In this document: piece after piece, positions 42,803-62,869 of the stretch
Numbering within the stretch: position 1 is the stretch's first letter
How the letters are laid out: the number at the start of each line of letters is the position of its first letter
Assembly: GCF_007993755.1 (NCBI RefSeq)
Contig: NZ_CP042467.1
Coordinates: 4,054,001-4,118,000, forward strand
DNA: 64,000 nt
From: Microvenator marinus
GTDB lineage: Bacteria > Myxococcota_A > Bradymonadia > Bradymonadales > Bradymonadaceae
Direction of reading: 5' to 3'
Program-made: the position numbers and the translations under genes
The notes under the pieces: model-generated
The model's database searches: none
What the model was told of the DNA's origin: nothing
What the model saw: the letters and a program-made list of their open reading frames with translations, nothing else

Positions 42803-43858
42803 TTATGGAGAGTCTTGACCAAGGCACGCGGCGAGCGCGTCGGTCTGTGCAAAACCGCATTGGCCGTTGGAATTGCAGCCGCACGAGGTCGTTGGCTCGT
42901 CGTAACATGCGTATTCAGGAAGGTATTCACACGTGGTCGCGATCTGTTGAGACGCGCAGATCTGACCGCTGCAGCCCGTTCGGAAGCAGTCCGCGTCCGT
43001 GACACACTCGTTTCCGGTCAGCGCTTCGCATTGGATCGTGACACCGCACATCGTCTCCGTATGACAGCCAGCTGGGTCGCTACAAGTCTGGACTTCACGA
43101 TATCCGGCTGGGCACACAGGGTAGGCGAGGCAGTCAACCGCGGTCTCTTGGCAGTAGATCGTGTGACCGCAAATCGAATGCTCAGTGCAGGTCGTCGGGT
43201 CCACATTCGGGTCACAGCCATCAACTTCCAAAGTCCCTTCGGGGCACACGGGATAAGCTTCGCATTGGTAGATTGGCTGCTCGCAAAGGATCGTCGCGCC
43301 GCACTCCGTCACTTCATGGCAGTCTCCAAGGTTGGTGTCGCCGTAGGAACAAGCCTGAACCTCTTCGTAGCCCTCGGGACACACTGGGATAGCTGCACAC
43401 TGCACAGAGTCCATGCAGATGATCGTGCTGCCACAAAGTGACTCTTCCACACATGACGCGTCAGCCGGGCAGGTCTCAACTTCCACATAGCCGGGCTGGC
43501 ATGAAGGGTAGGCAAGGCATGAACTGAGCTGATCCTCGGCGCAGTAGATGGTCACGCCACACATCGAGCTCTCTTCGCAATCCTCGATTCCCTCGCACGA
43601 TTCGACTTCGATCTCGTCGTCAGCGCACACAGGAATCGCCAGGCAGTTTACGGCACAATCCGGATCTGCGTTGGGGCAAAACTCGTCGCAGATGCCGTCT
43701 CCGTACCACCCATAGGCTTCGCAGAGATCGCGCGCATCACCTTTCTGGACCCGCTCCGCTTCCTCCTTGGTTAGACGCGATCCGTCCTCCGAAGGAGGCG
43801 CGATACATCCGGTCAAAATCACTCCCAAACATCCAATCAATAAGCTGAGTTTCTTCAT
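42803..43858 (-). CDS. Cys-rich repeat lipoprotein with eight-cysteine-cluster domain
   Basis: 351 residues with a lipobox (VILTGC, Cys17). About five repeats of 35-45 residues follow, each built on AxPxCPEGYxEVxxC...C...LCGxTIxC. The C-terminal 70 residues have an eight-cysteine pattern (CVTDADCFRTGCSGQICA...CEYLPEYACY...CGCNSNGQCGF) seen in exported proteins of Bradymonadales-type bacteria. Many disulfides are expected, so it should be a stable surface protein. Function is unknown. Start ATG 43858. Confidence 0.8.
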   Translation of the reverse strand: MKKLSLLIGCLGVILTGCIAPPSEDGSRLTKEEAERVQKGDARDLCEAYGWYGDGICDEFCPNADPDCAVNCLAIPVCADDEIEVESCEGIEDCEESSMCGVTIYCAEDQLSSCLAYPSCQPGYVEVETCPADASCVEESLCGSTIICMDSVQCAAIPVCPEGYEEVQACSYGDTNLGDCHEVTECGATILCEQPIYQCEAYPVCPEGTLEVDGCDPNVDPTTCTEHSICGHTIYCQETAVDCLAYPVCPAGYREVQTCSDPAGCHTETMCGVTIQCEALTGNECVTDADCFRTGCSGQICASQQIATTCEYLPEYACYDEPTTSCGCNSNGQCGFAQTDALAACLGQDSP

Positions 43859-46329: not shown

Positions 46330-46860
46330 TCATTGCGCCATGCCCCGGCCGATTGTCTCAAGGACTTCAGATGGATAGACGCCAAGCACCACCGCGTGAG
46401 GCGTCTGTGGCCCACGCGCAAAAGGGAATGGCTCCATGATCTGCAAATGAATCAGTGTTCCAGGGCGAATATTAAAAAACGAGACGTCGTGTCCCGCCAC
46501 TAACTTCGATACAACCGCCGTGATATTCGGATTATGCCCAAAAACAGCCACTTGGCCGGCGGTGCTCGAAAGCAGTCGCTGAACGGTCTCGGCTGGACTT
46601 GCCGCGGGAATTAAGTCCGAACAAAGCTCAGGCTCGAGCTCAAGCCCCACACCATCTAAAACCAATTTACACGTCTGCCGAGCCCTTAGATACGGGCTCA
46701 CAAGGACTTCGTCGGGCTTAAAACCAAGCGTCGAAATCCCCCGTGCCGCTTGAATGATCCGCGCCTTACCCTCTTCGCTCAGCGACCGCTCCCTATCGCC
46801 TTCAGGCGACCATTCCTCGGCAACACCGTGTCTCATCAGGAAGAGTTCGAACTCCTTCAT
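46330..46860 (-). CDS. sixA: SixA-type histidine phosphatase
   Basis: 176 residues of the histidine phosphatase clan, with catalytic LMRHGVAEE (RHG near residue 10) and the second histidine in VFGHNPNI, the GHNP signature of SixA. SixA dephosphorylates phosphohistidine on HPt domains or PTS proteins. It starts within the TGA of the thrombospondin-3 lipoprotein gene (ATGA at 46857-46860). Confidence 0.85.
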
Positions 46861-48425
46861 TCGCAGGCGTCCCCGATGCCGTCTCCGTCGGTATCAGTTT
46901 GGTTCGGATTGAAGTCGAACGGGCAGTTATCGCAAGCGTTCCCGATGCTGTCCCCGTCCGTGTCCGATTGAGAACCGTTGGCCAAATCAGGGCAGTTGTC
47001 CTGGTTGTTTGGAACCCCGTCTCCATCTCGGTCAGGATCGCAGGCATCCCCCAGACCGTCGTCATCTAGGTCCTCCTGCTCCGGGTCGAAGACGCTCGGG
47101 CACACGTCACACGCATCGCCCACGCCGTCCAAGTCGGTATCAAATTGTTGAGGGTTTGCAAGGGAAGGGCATACGTCGCAGGAATCTCCAACCCCGTCTT
47201 GGTCAATATCTGACTGCAGAGGGTTCTGAATGCCGAAACAGTTATCGCAGGCATTTCCAACGCCATCACCATCGGCGTCTGCCTGAGTCGGGTTCGGGAT
47301 GGATACACAATTGTCTTGAGCGTCCGCAACGCCGTCTCCATCTCGGTCAGCATCGCACACATCCCCTACCATATCCCCATCAATATCCGATTGGTTCTGA
47401 TTGGAGGCGTTTGGACAATTATCGCACGCGTCTCCGAGCGAATCCGTGTCCGAGTTTAACTGGACTTCATTGTCGATGTCGGGGCAGTTATCACAGGCGT
47501 CTCCGAGCGAGTCCCCGTCGGAATTCATCTGATTCGGATTCGCGTTATCGACGCAATTATCACACGCATCCCCAACGCCGTCGCCGTCTGCGTCTGCCTG
47601 ATCGTTGTTGGAGATCTCGGGGCAATTATCAATCGGATCAGGAATGCCATCCCCGTCTGAATCCACATCACACAGGTCTCCAACGCCGTTCCCATCGCTG
47701 TCTGATTGGTCCGGGTTCGCTAAATCGGGACAATTGTCTTCGCCATTTAAGACGCCATCGCCATCGCGGTCGTCGTCACATGCGTCGCCCTCACCGTCCT
47801 CATCGAGGTCTTCCTGAGCTGGATTCGGAACAAACGGGCAGTTGTCGTCGTCATTGACGACTTCGTCCGAGTCGATATCGGGGTCACATGCGTCTCCGAC
47901 GCCGTCCTCGTCTGTATCCTCCTGAGCATTATTGGAGACTTCCGGGCAGTTATCGACGTCATTCTCAACACTATCCCCGTCCAAGTCCGGGTCGCATGCG
48001 TCACCCTCGCCATCTTCGTCGAGGTCCTCTTGTTCCGGATTTTCTATCGACGGGCAGTTGTCCTCGTCGTTGGCGATGCCATCGCCATCGAGATCGTCAT
48101 CGCACGCATCCCCTTGGCCGTCGTCGTCCGAATCGTTCTGGTCTGGGTTTGCGATATCCAGGCAGTTGTCGTCCGCGTCAGGCACGCCATCGTCATCAGT
48201 GTCGACGGGGGCGTCCGGCTCTTCGTCCGGCACGTCCATATCCGACTCGTCCGGCTCATCCATGTCCACGATTGGAAACGGCTTCTGGCAGATCCCAAGC
48301 AAGCAGACATCACCCTCAAAACACTCCGAAGTCGTCCGGCACTGATCGTCTGTGAACTCAGGTTTACATGCGCTCAGAGTCAACAACACAAGAACGAGCG
48401 AAATTAGGAATCTAGTTTTGTTCAC
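46857..48425 (-). CDS. thrombospondin type-3 repeat lipoprotein
   Basis: About 520 residues. The start is GTG at 48425 ([10 protein letters not shown]); the ATG at 48449 only adds a non-signal stretch. The lipobox is LTLSAC. Then come about 14 Asp-rich calcium-binding repeats of the TSP3 type (DxDxDGxxDxxDNCP, repeated with D-NCPxxxNPxQxDxDxDGxGDACD). The repeats should bind many Ca2+ and form a rigid rod on the cell surface. The frame on the opposite strand is a shadow. TATAAT occurs right at the start codon. Confidence 0.85.
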
Positions 48426-50579: not shown

Positions 50580-50626
50580 GCCAGCCTCTTGCAGTTCAAA
50601 TGGCTTTCCTCTATGGTCCTTGGCGC

Positions 50627-51295
50627 ATGATGACTTCGTCTCATATACGGGCACTCGCCACCTTGATGCTTAAAGTCCTGGCTTTCGCCATCGCCTTCTC
50701 AAGCACCAATGCCTACGCCCTTTTTTGGGAAGGCGAGAGCCTTTGTGGTCAAGAGATCAAAGAGGCTCCGGTCAGTTCAGCAATCTCTTGGATCACCGAA
50801 AATGATCTCGATGAGGTCGCTCAAGAGGCAGAGCCATGCTCTTCGCCCGAGGAAATCCTAAACGAAGCAGACTTCAGTGTGTGTTTTGAAGATGCAGGTG
50901 CTCCGATGTCCACGCTGCCTGCTGCTATCGCTGAGATGCAGTCGGAGCGTGCGTCCAAACATTTTGCGAATGTCGCACTGGCAATGGTCCGTGAAAAGGT
51001 GGCTGAGAACGCCCCCCGGTCAGAACCTGAGCCACCACGCGCCCATTTGCCTAAGTACGCGCTCAAAGCTCCAATCAAAGAGTGCCTCTCCTATGAGATC
51101 GAGTGTGAAAGTGCGCCGCACCCCATGGTCACAATCAGCCTCGAAATGCATGCGCCGATCAACCTGGTGCCTGAAACGGCGGTGAGCTTCTCACCTCCAG
51201 TTGCGGTCCAAAGAGCGAATCCAATGCGCTCAAATCCGGGACTTCGCTTCGTCTGGAGCACCTCGGACGTACCCACCCCACCCCCAAATGCTTGA
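50627..51295 (+). CDS. exported protein of unknown function
   Basis: About 222 residues from ATG 50627 (50600 also possible). Signal peptide reads LKVLAFAIAFSSTNAYA. The mature part has six scattered Cys, a Glu-rich first half and an amphipathic region. No family recognised. It follows uvrB at 48 nt and ends just before a hairpin at 51303. Confidence 0.55.
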   Translation: MMTSSHIRALATLMLKVLAFAIAFSSTNAYALFWEGESLCGQEIKEAPVSSAISWITENDLDEVAQEAEPCSSPEEILNEADFSVCFEDAGAPMSTLPAAIAEMQSERASKHFANVALAMVREKVAENAPRSEPEPPRAHLPKYALKAPIKECLSYEIECESAPHPMVTISLEMHAPINLVPETAVSFSPPVAVQRANPMRSNPGLRFVWSTSDVPTPPPNA

Positions 51296-51302
51296 TGCGG
51301 TC

Positions 51303-51326
51303 GAGGGTGCAGTTTAACTGCCCCTC
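51303..51326 (+). terminator. hairpin after the exported protein gene
   Basis: GAGGG-T-GCAGT / ACTGC-CCCTC forms a bulged 10-bp stem with a 3-nt loop, a few bases after the stop. No T-tract. Confidence 0.4.
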
Positions 51327-51383
51327 ATCACACAAAGACCCTAGATGAATCCCAAGCTTTCGAGTAGAAGGCTCGGGCTCAAG

Positions 51384-51389
51384 TATAAT
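51384..51389 (+). promoter_or_regulatory. candidate -10 box of the triple-DsbA gene
   Basis: TATAAT at 51384-51389 is a perfect -10 hexamer, 41 nt upstream of the ATG. The -35 is unclear. A strong AAAGGAG ribosome-binding site precedes the ATG at 51430. Confidence 0.45.
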
Positions 51390-51429
51390 TGCAGTTTAGT
51401 TAAACAAACGTTTCTAAAGGAGAAACACT

Positions 51430-53454
51430 ATGGCACATGATGCCCAAGGTTCGAGCGGATCAAATCTGCTCGTGATGGTCGCGATCGCATTGATCGCATT
51501 CGCAGGCGGTTACGTCATCGGAAACAAAGGCGCAGAATCAGTTCAACCTGGTGCTGCTGTCGAAGCTGGCGCTCAAGGCGCTGCAGCACTTGCTCGCGGC
51601 GGCGTTGCTGGCGATTCCGACAAGATTCCTATCGGAGACAGCCCCGTGTTCGGAAACCCTTCAGCGCCTATCGCTGTGGTGGAGTTCTCGAGCATGCAAT
51701 GTCCGTTCTGTGCACGTGGTTCAGAGACGCTCAAGCAGCTGCAGCAAAAGTACCCAAACGACGTCAAATTGGTCTTCAAGCACTACCCACTTGGATTCCA
51801 AGCTGAGTCTCCGGCACTCTCCAAAGCCCTCATCGCTGCTGGCGAGCAAGGCAAATTCTGGGAGATGAAAGAGAAGGTTTTCGCAAACGTGTCTAAGCAC
51901 AAAGGCGTAAACGTTAAAGAAGTGACTTCGGGATACGCAAAAGAGCTCGGCCTTGATGTGGCCAAGTTCCAAGCCGCTTTCGACAACCCAAAAAACGACG
52001 AAATCATCAAGCGTGACCAAGATCTTGGTAACTCGATTGGCGTTCGTGGAACCCCACACTTCTTCGTCAACGGTGAGCGCGTCTCTGGCGCACAACCACT
52101 CGCGAAATTCGAAGAAATCGTCAAAGCACAGCTTGAGCAAGTCAAAAAGCACACTGCAGCAGGCGTTGCCAAAGACCAAGTTTACGGCAAAATGGTTGCC
52201 GAGAACTTCAAGGACACCCCATCTGCGCCATCGGCTGACAAGCCAGCTGCACCAGCAACCGTAGTCAATATGGTTCCTGTTCGCGCTAATGATCCGATGA
52301 AAGGAAACACCAAGGATCCCCTGGTGACCATCGTCGAGTTCTCAGACTTCCAATGCCCATTCTGCAGCCGTGTTAACCCAACACTTGAGCAGGTCATGAA
52401 GAACTACGGCGAGCAAGTCCGTATTGTCTTCAAGCAGAACCCACTACCATTCCACCAGGAAGCTCCTGCTGCCCACGAAGCTGCTTTGGCCGCTCATGAG
52501 CAAGGAAAGTTCTGGGAAATGCACGACCTTCTCTTCGCTAACATGCAGTCTTTCAAAGGTGCTGATATGCGCGAGCTCACCACGGGCTACGCTCAACAGC
52601 TGGGCTTGAACGTCAACAAGTTCAAGGCATACCTCGACTCCGGTAAAGGCAAGCAAATCGTCAAGGAAGACCTTGAGCTCGGCTCCAAAGTTGGCGCTCG
52701 TGGAACCCCTAACTTCTTCGTGAACGGCGTTCAGTTGGTCGGCGCAAAGCCATACCCAGCGTTCGAAGCTGAAATCAAGAAGCAGATCGCACTTGCTGAG
52801 AAGCTCAAGAAAGAGCGTAACCTTAAGGGTGAGGCTCTTTACGAAGCCGTTGTTGCTGAAAACAAGAAGAACGCTCCTGCAGCAGCAGCACCAACACCAG
52901 CTCCAGCAGCCGCACCAGACAAGGTCGACCCAAGCAAGCTTAACATCGGAAACGCTGTTACTCGCGGACCTAAGAACGCACCTGTCACCATCTTCGCTTT
53001 CTCTGACTTCCAATGCCCATTCTGCGCACGCGCAGCTGGTACCATCGAAGAAGTCATGAAGGAGTACGATGGCAAAGTGCAGTTGGTCTTCAAAGCTTAC
53101 CCACTTCCATTCCACCAGGAAGCTCCTGCCGCTCACCGCGCAGCTCTCGCTGCTGCAAAGCAAGGCAAGTTCTGGGAAATGCACGACAAACTCTTCGCAA
53201 CCATGAAAGAGTTCAAGACCGCAGGTCACTTCGAGAAAGTGGCTCAAGAGCTTGGCTTGAATATGGAGAAGTTCAAAGCTGACTTCAACAGCGATGAGCT
53301 CAAGAAGCAGGTCGATGCCGAAATGGCAGAAGGCTCAGCTGTTGGCGTTCGTGGAACCCCAGCATTCTTCATCAACGGCAATCGCGTCGTTGGTGCTCAG
53401 CCGCTTCCTAAGTTCAAGGAAGTCATCGACGCTGAACTTGCCAAGAAGAAGTAA
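51430..53454 (+). CDS. membrane-anchored protein with three tandem DsbA-like thioredoxin domains
   Basis: 674 residues. A transmembrane anchor (about 14-30) leads into a Gly/Ala-rich linker and three copies of a DsbA/thioredoxin-4 type domain, each with an active-site CPFC: C91-C94, C309-C312 and C529-C532. Each copy also has the cis-proline loop (RGTPHFFVNG, RGTPNFFVNG, RGTPAFFING). Copies 2 and 3 are nearly identical in places, even at DNA level (CATTCCACCAGGAAGCTCCTG at two sites), so they duplicated recently. It should oxidise or isomerise disulfides in the envelope, fitting a lineage with many Cys-rich exported proteins. Codon use is that of a highly expressed gene. Confidence 0.9.
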   Translation: MAHDAQGSSGSNLLVMVAIALIAFAGGYVIGNKGAESVQPGAAVEAGAQGAAALARGGVAGDSDKIPIGDSPVFGNPSAPIAVVEFSSMQCPFCARGSETLKQLQQKYPNDVKLVFKHYPLGFQAESPALSKALIAAGEQGKFWEMKEKVFANVSKHKGVNVKEVTSGYAKELGLDVAKFQAAFDNPKNDEIIKRDQDLGNSIGVRGTPHFFVNGERVSGAQPLAKFEEIVKAQLEQVKKHTAAGVAKDQVYGKMVAENFKDTPSAPSADKPAAPATVVNMVPVRANDPMKGNTKDPLVTIVEFSDFQCPFCSRVNPTLEQVMKNYGEQVRIVFKQNPLPFHQEAPAAHEAALAAHEQGKFWEMHDLLFANMQSFKGADMRELTTGYAQQLGLNVNKFKAYLDSGKGKQIVKEDLELGSKVGARGTPNFFVNGVQLVGAKPYPAFEAEIKKQIALAEKLKKERNLKGEALYEAVVAENKKNAPAAAAPTPAPAAAPDKVDPSKLNIGNAVTRGPKNAPVTIFAFSDFQCPFCARAAGTIEEVMKEYDGKVQLVFKAYPLPFHQEAPAAHRAALAAAKQGKFWEMHDKLFATMKEFKTAGHFEKVAQELGLNMEKFKADFNSDELKKQVDAEMAEGSAVGVRGTPAFFINGNRVVGAQPLPKFKEVIDAELAKKK

Positions 53455-61384: not shown

Positions 61385-62869
61385 ATGCGAAGTTTATTGT
61401 TTTTGGTGGTTTTTGCTCTCGGTTGTGGCGATGAGATCGTCAAGAAGACGCCCGATACGCCCAACCCAAACAATTCTGAGAATAATCAGACCAATAACGA
61501 GCCTGGCTCAAACAACCTGACCGTCACTCAGAACAATTCCAACAATACAACGGGTCCCGACAACCCAGTCTCCAACAACTCGCCGGGTACCAACAATTCG
61601 CCGGGTTCCAACAACTCGAACAACTCGAACAACTCGAACAACACCAATAATCAAACTGTCGATCCCCCCGCGTTATGCGGTGATGGGCTAGTTCAGCAAG
61701 GCGAACAATGTGACGGCCTTCCGTTGGTCTCCTGCGAAGACCTCGGCTTCTCCGGAGGCAGCGTCACGTGCTCAAGCTCTTGCCAACATGTGGTACAAGG
61801 CTGCTTCCACGAGCGTTGCGGCGATGGCGTTGTTAACGATTCCGAGGAGTGTGATGGCGCGCCGGGAACTACGTGTTCAGCCCTTGGATTTGATGGCGGC
61901 ACAATCACCTGCTCGTCACAGTGCACATTGAACGTGAACGCGTGTACGTCCTGTGGTGACGGTGTGCGCGAAGGCAATGAGTCTTGCGATGACGGTGCTC
62001 AGAACGGTCAGTACGGACGGTGTAAGGCCGATTGCTCGGGGCCTGGGCCCAGGTGTGGTGACGGCGTGCGAAACGGGAACGAGGTCTGTGACGATGGCGC
62101 CCAAAACGGCCAATACAACCGTTGTAATTCCACCTGTACGGGCCTCGGCGCCACCTGCGGTGATGGCGTCGTCAACGGAAACGAGGTGTGTGATGACGGC
62201 TCGGAGAACGGGCAGTATGGCAAATGCAACGCATCTTGCACCGCTCTCGGACCACGCTGTGGCGATGGCATTGTCAATGGTGCAGAACAATGTGATGGGA
62301 CGACCAACGCGACCTGCACCATCTTCGGAACTGGTACGCCCACATGTGATTCGAGCTGCAATGTTGATTATACCGGTTGTGTGATTGAACCACCTGAACC
62401 GGGCGATTTCCGAATCACCGAGATCATGGCGGACCCTGCGAATCGTTACGACAGCGAAGGTGAGTGGTTTGAGGTTCGGAACCTGACCACAGGGCACCGA
62501 AACCTTCATAATTGTGTGGTTGAGAGCCAGACTTCTACGGGCGCTGAATCGTTCACTATCAACCAATCCATCGAAGTTTCGCCCTGGGGCTATGTGACTT
62601 TTGCGCGCCACGTGAATGTGGGCTTCACCGCAGACTTCATCTACGGCGCGCAGATCAACCTGAATAACACCAATGACACTTTGACGCTCAAGTGTCCGTC
62701 CTGGGCGGGCTCCTCGTTCTTCGACGAAATCGACTCCACCCAATACTCGTCCCCGCCTACCGGCGCTACGTGGAGCCGTGACGACTGGGGCATCTGGTGC
62801 TCCGCGGTCACGCCATTCGCGACCGGAGACCTGGGTACGCCAGGGGCTGATAATCCCGAGTGTCCGTGA
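61385..62869 (+). CDS. DUF4215-repeat lipoprotein with C-terminal lamin-tail domain
   Basis: 494 residues. The lipobox is FALGC (Cys14). An Asn-rich linker (25-95) is followed by six Cys-rich repeats of DUF4215 type (CGDGVxNGxExCDDG...). The C-terminal 150 residues are a lamin-tail (LTD) domain (EPGDFRITEIMADPANRYDSEGEWFEVRNLT). Likely an outer-surface protein. A rho-independent terminator follows at 62921. Confidence 0.8.
   Translation: MRSLLFLVVFALGCGDEIVKKTPDTPNPNNSENNQTNNEPGSNNLTVTQNNSNNTTGPDNPVSNNSPGTNNSPGSNNSNNSNNSNNTNNQTVDPPALCGDGLVQQGEQCDGLPLVSCEDLGFSGGSVTCSSSCQHVVQGCFHERCGDGVVNDSEECDGAPGTTCSALGFDGGTITCSSQCTLNVNACTSCGDGVREGNESCDDGAQNGQYGRCKADCSGPGPRCGDGVRNGNEVCDDGAQNGQYNRCNSTCTGLGATCGDGVVNGNEVCDDGSENGQYGKCNASCTALGPRCGDGIVNGAEQCDGTTNATCTIFGTGTPTCDSSCNVDYTGCVIEPPEPGDFRITEIMADPANRYDSEGEWFEVRNLTTGHRNLHNCVVESQTSTGAESFTINQSIEVSPWGYVTFARHVNVGFTADFIYGAQINLNNTNDTLTLKCPSWAGSSFFDEIDSTQYSSPPTGATWSRDDWGIWCSAVTPFATGDLGTPGADNPECP

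Follow-up and report, generated by a model that had tools for sequence, protein, structure and literature searches.

A Three-Headed DsbA-like Array in Microvenator marinus: a Predicted Envelope Thiol-Disulfide Oxidoreductase with Relatives across Myxococcota

Introduction

How disulfides are handled in the envelope of bacteria without DsbB and VKOR is an open question. It is raised in a particular form by a gene within a 64,000-nucleotide stretch of the Microvenator marinus genome (the window; part of a single-contig genome of 5.85 Mb), which encodes three DsbA-like domains in one chain (the array). Is this architecture peculiar to the locus, how old are its repeats, and with which partners might it work? 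The family to which the genome belongs includes good genomes in which to ask, ones that lack a recognised oxidase and encode intact multi-headed arrays together with a Cys-containing protein strictly linked to them. A naturally occurring counterpart of the ScsC trimer, joined covalently, would also provide a clean test of whether isomerase activity arises simply from tethering DsbA-like heads.

Results and Discussion

Three DsbA-like Domains Follow One Predicted Anchor

The array gene occupies positions 51430–53454 of the + strand, exactly as given in the first-pass annotation, and encodes 674 residues. Three stretches of the protein match each of the Pfam models Thioredoxin_4 (PF13462) and DSBA (PF01323), with scores (263.7 and 247.8 bits) far over the Pfam cut-offs, and each of the three copies is separately over the Pfam cut-off in a profile search of the genome. 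The NCBIfam model NF041057 scores 307.9 bits on the whole protein (cut-off 190), a value summed over three domains; the best single domain scores 123.3 bits, which is under the cut-off.

Domain 1 spans 51640–52157 (CPFC at 51700, Thr-cisPro motif GTPH at about 52054), domain 2 spans 52270–52827 (CPFC at 52354, GTPN at about 52708), and domain 3 spans 52950–53451 (CPFC at 53014, GTPA at about 53359), all on the + strand. In the protein the CPFC motifs are at residues 91, 309, and 529, and the GTP motifs at 207–209, 425–427, and 642–644 (cis-Pro 209, 427, and 644), bearing out the earlier proposal of three CPFC domains of the DsbA type, each with a cis-Pro loop, in a single chain. The AlphaFold model of the array (37 sequences) has a mean pLDDT of 88.9, with mostly 90–98 in the folded parts of the heads and low confidence at the N terminus and in parts of the linkers; its pTM of 0.59 leaves uncertain how the three heads lie relative to one another. 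The secondary structure of the model, together with Foldseek matches to DsbA structures, indicates a thioredoxin fold with a helical insertion. Foldseek comparison with the PDB returned DsbA, TsdA, ScsC, alpha-DsbA, and BdbD structures; sequence and fold matches there include Corynebacterium DsbA/TsdA and ScsC, and by sequence the closest solved structure is that of an actinobacterial DsbA rather than of ScsC.

Ahead of the domains, 51430–51603 (+) encodes a hydrophobic, anchor-like helix (residues 12–30) followed by a flexible linker (residues 31–58, low confidence) in the AlphaFold model, in agreement with the single N-terminal membrane anchor described at first pass. No Arg or Lys precedes the helix. 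Anchors of the same kind are found in the arrays of other family members; lipoprotein-like signals are present in neighboring paralogues of the family, and ordinary positively charged N termini in many relatives outside it. We infer that the array domains are in the periplasm, outside the cytoplasm.

The three-domain arrangement is conserved across 37 aligned relatives and is not due to chance; over these proteins, down to 38% identity, the active-site cysteines are invariant or nearly so. In the three-domain members of the family CxxC is kept in 57 of 57 domains, and pattern matching identified a cis-Pro loop in 54. By sequence, the three heads would be catalytically competent, and the inactive domains that the first-pass annotation had envisaged as counterevidence were not what these comparisons revealed. 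The sequence, predicted fold, and conserved active sites of the array give good support to its reading as a multi-headed thiol-disulfide oxidoreductase. In some arrays elsewhere individual heads deviate: domain 1 has lost its Cys pair in L057 (3680–6535) and L085 (3647–6403) with the head still in the chain, and domains 2 and 3 of L086 (256–2316) read CPFS, both likewise remaining in the chain.

DsbA Arrays Are Widespread in Myxococcota

The best named relative, at 52% identity, comes from a Lujinxingiaceae metagenome bin, and many Myxococcota rank next. A search across the class put the genome in one family with 20 others. The best 80 matches in named genomes are all multi-domain arrays, nearly all labelled Myxococcota or Deltaproteobacteria, and the fetched loci contain 71 three-domain, 29 four-domain, two six-domain, and one seven-domain ORFs (some duplicates of one contig included). 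These two sets of matches rule out a unique architecture. Across the phylum the number of heads varies between 2 and at least 7: L038 (3884–8920) has seven CPFC DsbA domains in one ORF of 1679 residues, and L033 (3884–7387) has at least six consecutive ones, also in a single ORF. Several loci have two or three neighboring array genes, e.g. three three-domain genes in a row in L144, and adjoining genes with 2+3+2 domains in L077 and L090. Matches to NF041057 at E ≤ 0.001, counting single domains too, occur in all 239 sampled genomes of the phylum. The first-pass view of the three-domain protein as unusual is thus not sustained by the search for the same architecture, since arrays of three to four (up to at least seven) domains are widespread in Myxococcota and the domain is already covered by NCBIfam.

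We found no study on point of tandem DsbA proteins, Myxococcota disulfide pathways, or the Rcas_1661 family in open-access full text, a scope outside which most subscription papers lie. The array is older and far commoner than first held and, judged by its motifs, catalytically intact, with no published function in the literature searched. Clustering of array neighbors across the whole phylum gave few real conserved ones, antisense shadow ORFs being dominant. A TlpA/ResA-like thioredoxin gene lies beside some arrays outside the family (L050, L055, L058, L059, L065, L067, L068, and L070).

L062 (3701–6700), from a Myxococcales bin of Lake Baikal, is a four-domain array in which in-frame TGA codons (4112 and 6059) take the place of the first active-site Cys in domains 1 and 4 (UPFC), and the same strong hairpin, GAGGGTCGGTCCGACCCTC, follows each of the two. 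These features suggest an array protein with two selenocysteines; DsbA-like proteins with a single selenocysteine are already listed (PMC13188914).

The Three Copies Are Old and Distinct

Copies 2 and 3 had been described as sharing near-identical DNA blocks, which overstates their likeness. Protein identity between them is 55% and DNA identity 63% (copies 1 and 2, 45% and 56%; copies 1 and 3, 44% and 56%), and their longest common exact blocks, of 23, 21, and 21 nt, lie over the most conserved motifs. Where copies 2 and 3 have the same residue, the codon is identical at 63 of 95 sites; the codon usage of the gene itself predicts 52, so that any excess is slight.

A tree was built of 154 domains; its deeper branches are poorly supported. 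In it the window's second domain pairs with domain 2 of L139 (support 0.99), its third with domain 3 of the same locus (0.93), and its first with domain 1 of L018 (0.90), the last within a group of first domains. Copies 2 and 3 therefore each cluster with the same-position domain of another, sister genus and not together, and this separate treatment of the domains, which the first-pass annotation had proposed as a check, does not favor the close mutual relationship that it had assumed. The low DNA identity and the position-wise tree rule out that copies 2 and 3 were recently duplicated or subject to gene conversion; the grouping by position with counterparts in the sister genus indicates that the triplication is old. 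Arrays of other classes may have arisen by separate multiplication.

These data bear on whether the array is a simple concatemer, i.e. independent heads on one anchor that would raise the local dose of catalyst without cooperating. The variable number of heads across the phylum is as expected of such a protein, as is the loss or alteration of heads in some arrays (L057 and L085 without CxxC in domain 1; L086 with CPFS in domains 2 and 3). Within the family, however, the positions are distinct in the domain tree, and the residue after the cis-Pro is mostly position specific (His in domain 1, Asn or Gly in domain 2, Ala in domain 3), which would be needless for equal, interchangeable heads. Position-specific residues and clustering by position across genera together imply that the heads are old and have been kept distinct, and we consider a concatemer improbable.

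The Genome Has DsbD-Type Proteins and No Recognised DsbB or VKOR

No match to DsbB (PF02600) or VKOR (PF07884) was found in the single-contig genome using the Pfam models at E ≤ 0.001, a search that a divergent oxidase would escape. The same searches were positive in controls: among 239 genomes of the phylum, they detected VKOR in 159 and DsbB in 24. Among the 12 family genomes of at least 90% completeness, DsbB is found in none and VKOR in four; eight have neither, two of which are single-contig assemblies (the window's genome and G008). A search for Erv/ALR oxidases was silent in the genome and controls alike. DsbD_TM (PF02683) is present in 12 of 12 of the same family genomes. The window's own genome encodes two DsbD_TM proteins, one of 457 residues with an N-terminal thioredoxin, the other of 758 residues with DsbD_N (PF11412), DsbD_TM, and Thioredoxin_7, so reducing power is available, although these proteins may be engaged in cytochrome c maturation or in other reductive work unrelated to the array. 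Two further DsbA-like lipoproteins are encoded elsewhere in the genome, one with two heads (CGFC and CPFC; L016, 3457–4881), the other with just one (CPHC) and encoded next to a gene resembling that for threonyl-tRNA synthetase (L017, 2884–3819).

With DsbB and VKOR missing, the classical oxidase pathway is incomplete here, leaving isomerase or reductase work or an unrecognised re-oxidant. The latter would be needed if the array were an oxidase or oxidase relay, with its heads donating disulfides to exported proteins and being re-oxidised by an unrecognised enzyme or small molecule. The CPFC sites are of the DsbA type and the closest solved relatives are the actinobacterial DsbA/TsdA oxidoreductases; moreover, the VKOR proteins examined in the phylum carry their own DsbA-like domain, and such fusions indicate that oxidative folding exists in relatives. 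Set against this are the lack of DsbB and VKOR matches in the window's genome and in eight of the 12 good family genomes and, for a relay between heads in particular, the fact that the presence of three heads is the one observation pointing to it. An oxidase role is in our view rather unlikely.

The first-pass annotation had also linked the array to many Cys-rich surface proteins encoded nearby. Four Cys-rich, secreted-looking ORFs are indeed present in the window, but control DNA sampled elsewhere in the genome (400 kb) has 1.76 such ORFs per 64 kb, so that they are not clearly denser in the window, and the link is suggestive at most; the counts come from a crude secretion filter, with genome-wide statistics from sampled regions. 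Local enrichment of Cys-rich targets was rejected as a claim, four versus 1.76 expected being too few. The window's Cys-rich products include a predicted lipoprotein of 351 residues with 46 Cys (13%) and no Pfam family (42806–43858, −), and two Cys-rich lipoprotein-like proteins (46860–48425, −, and 61385–62869, +), of which one contains ten stretches of thrombospondin type 3 repeats and one matches DUF4215.

A Four-Cysteine Companion Is Encoded Directly Upstream

The gene preceding the array (50600–51295, +) encodes a companion protein of 231 residues with a signal-peptide-like N terminus, five Cys, and no match to a Pfam family. The two genes may be co-transcribed, as the 134-nt gap between them (51296–51429) contains no hairpin on the + strand that resembles a terminator. 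Companion homologues lie upstream of the array in the family and have the motifs PC...N.CFE....P.STLP and C(5-9)C.S.PP. By profile search, 19 of 21 family genomes have a companion, in one copy each, versus none of the 36 other genomes of the class. In all 19 loci (in two of which the array is cut by a contig end) the next same-strand DsbA-type ORF adjoins the companion gene, at −88 to 424 nt in stop-to-stop coordinates, and four of the companion's cysteines are invariant in all 19. A structural model of the companion from a three-sequence alignment is unreliable (pLDDT 40).

Of the new clues to function, this linkage is the strongest, and the companion is probably a dedicated partner or substrate of the array. 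A stricter version, in which the array would be a maturation factor for the companion alone (a two-gene system) and not a general envelope enzyme, accords with the directly upstream position in 19 of 19 loci, the single copy per genome, and the restriction to the family within its class. Arrays lacking a companion, however, are found all through Myxococcota, and other DsbA-like genes are present in the genome, making so exclusive a pairing highly improbable.

A Tentative Model for Array Function

ScsC and WpDsbA2 are trimeric, and isomerase activity has been linked to the bringing together of DsbA-like domains (PMC8900818). Caulobacter and Proteus ScsC are both trimeric, and for Wolbachia DsbA2 the proximity of three domains has been suggested to suffice (PMC8900818). 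By analogy, a fused three-headed protein accompanied by DsbD, without a recognised DsbB or VKOR, would fit an ScsC-like mode better than that of a classical DsbA oxidase, and we infer isomerase rather than oxidase activity for the array, with DsbD as reductant.

The reading that we favor, tentatively and with slightly less than even confidence, is a membrane-anchored envelope oxidoreductase whose three DsbA-like heads would work in an isomerase-like mode, as in trimeric ScsC or PDI, reduced by DsbD and with the companion as partner or substrate. Three heads on flexible linkers would share one membrane anchor; so tethered, by covalent fusion in place of trimerisation, they could act on one misfolded Cys-containing substrate and rearrange its disulfides. 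The DsbD/ScsB-type proteins of the genome would supply the reducing power, and the secreted four-Cys companion would serve as dedicated partner or substrate. A bolder extension, which we find rather doubtful, is that the covalent DsbA arrays of Myxococcota are PDI-like disulfide shufflers in general and that in the family, without DsbB or VKOR, the four-Cys secreted partner supplies or receives the disulfides.

Comparison with Known Systems

Each array domain matches the profile of NF041057 (Rcas_1661 family thioredoxin-like (seleno)lipoprotein), but that model describes a single-domain lipoprotein of 247 positions. The VKOR-DsbA fusions of Myxococcota resemble the array in having a membrane-attached DsbA-like domain in the same phylum; in contrast to the array, they carry their own oxidase, and none was found in the window's genome. 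PDI and the archaeal protein disulfide oxidoreductase (PDO) have, like the array, several redox-active thioredoxin folds per chain, but their domains are classical thioredoxin domains, whereas those of the array are of the DsbA type with a helical insertion. The eukaryotic folding sensor UGGT also has tandem thioredoxin-like folds in one chain and was matched in the fold search over about 600 columns; its whole-chain superposition with the array is poor (TM 0.18, rmsd about 20), and the thioredoxin-like domains of UGGT are not catalytic redox sites.

The trimeric DsbA-like isomerases, i.e. Proteus and Caulobacter ScsC, Wolbachia alpha-DsbA2, and Salmonella BcfH, have DsbA-like domains in threes, as does the array, with a DsbD/ScsB-type reductase in the genome. 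Several catalytic domains in one particle, as in ScsC and DsbC, are achieved in the array through fusion, not oligomerisation. The array heads are non-identical and part of one chain, and in the AlphaFold model a membrane-anchoring hydrophobic helix and a low-confidence linker stand in place of an N-terminal oligomerisation (trimerisation) domain. As it does not have the ScsC oligomerisation domain, we do not file the array as ScsC or DsbC; by analogy, it may work like ScsC without being ScsC.
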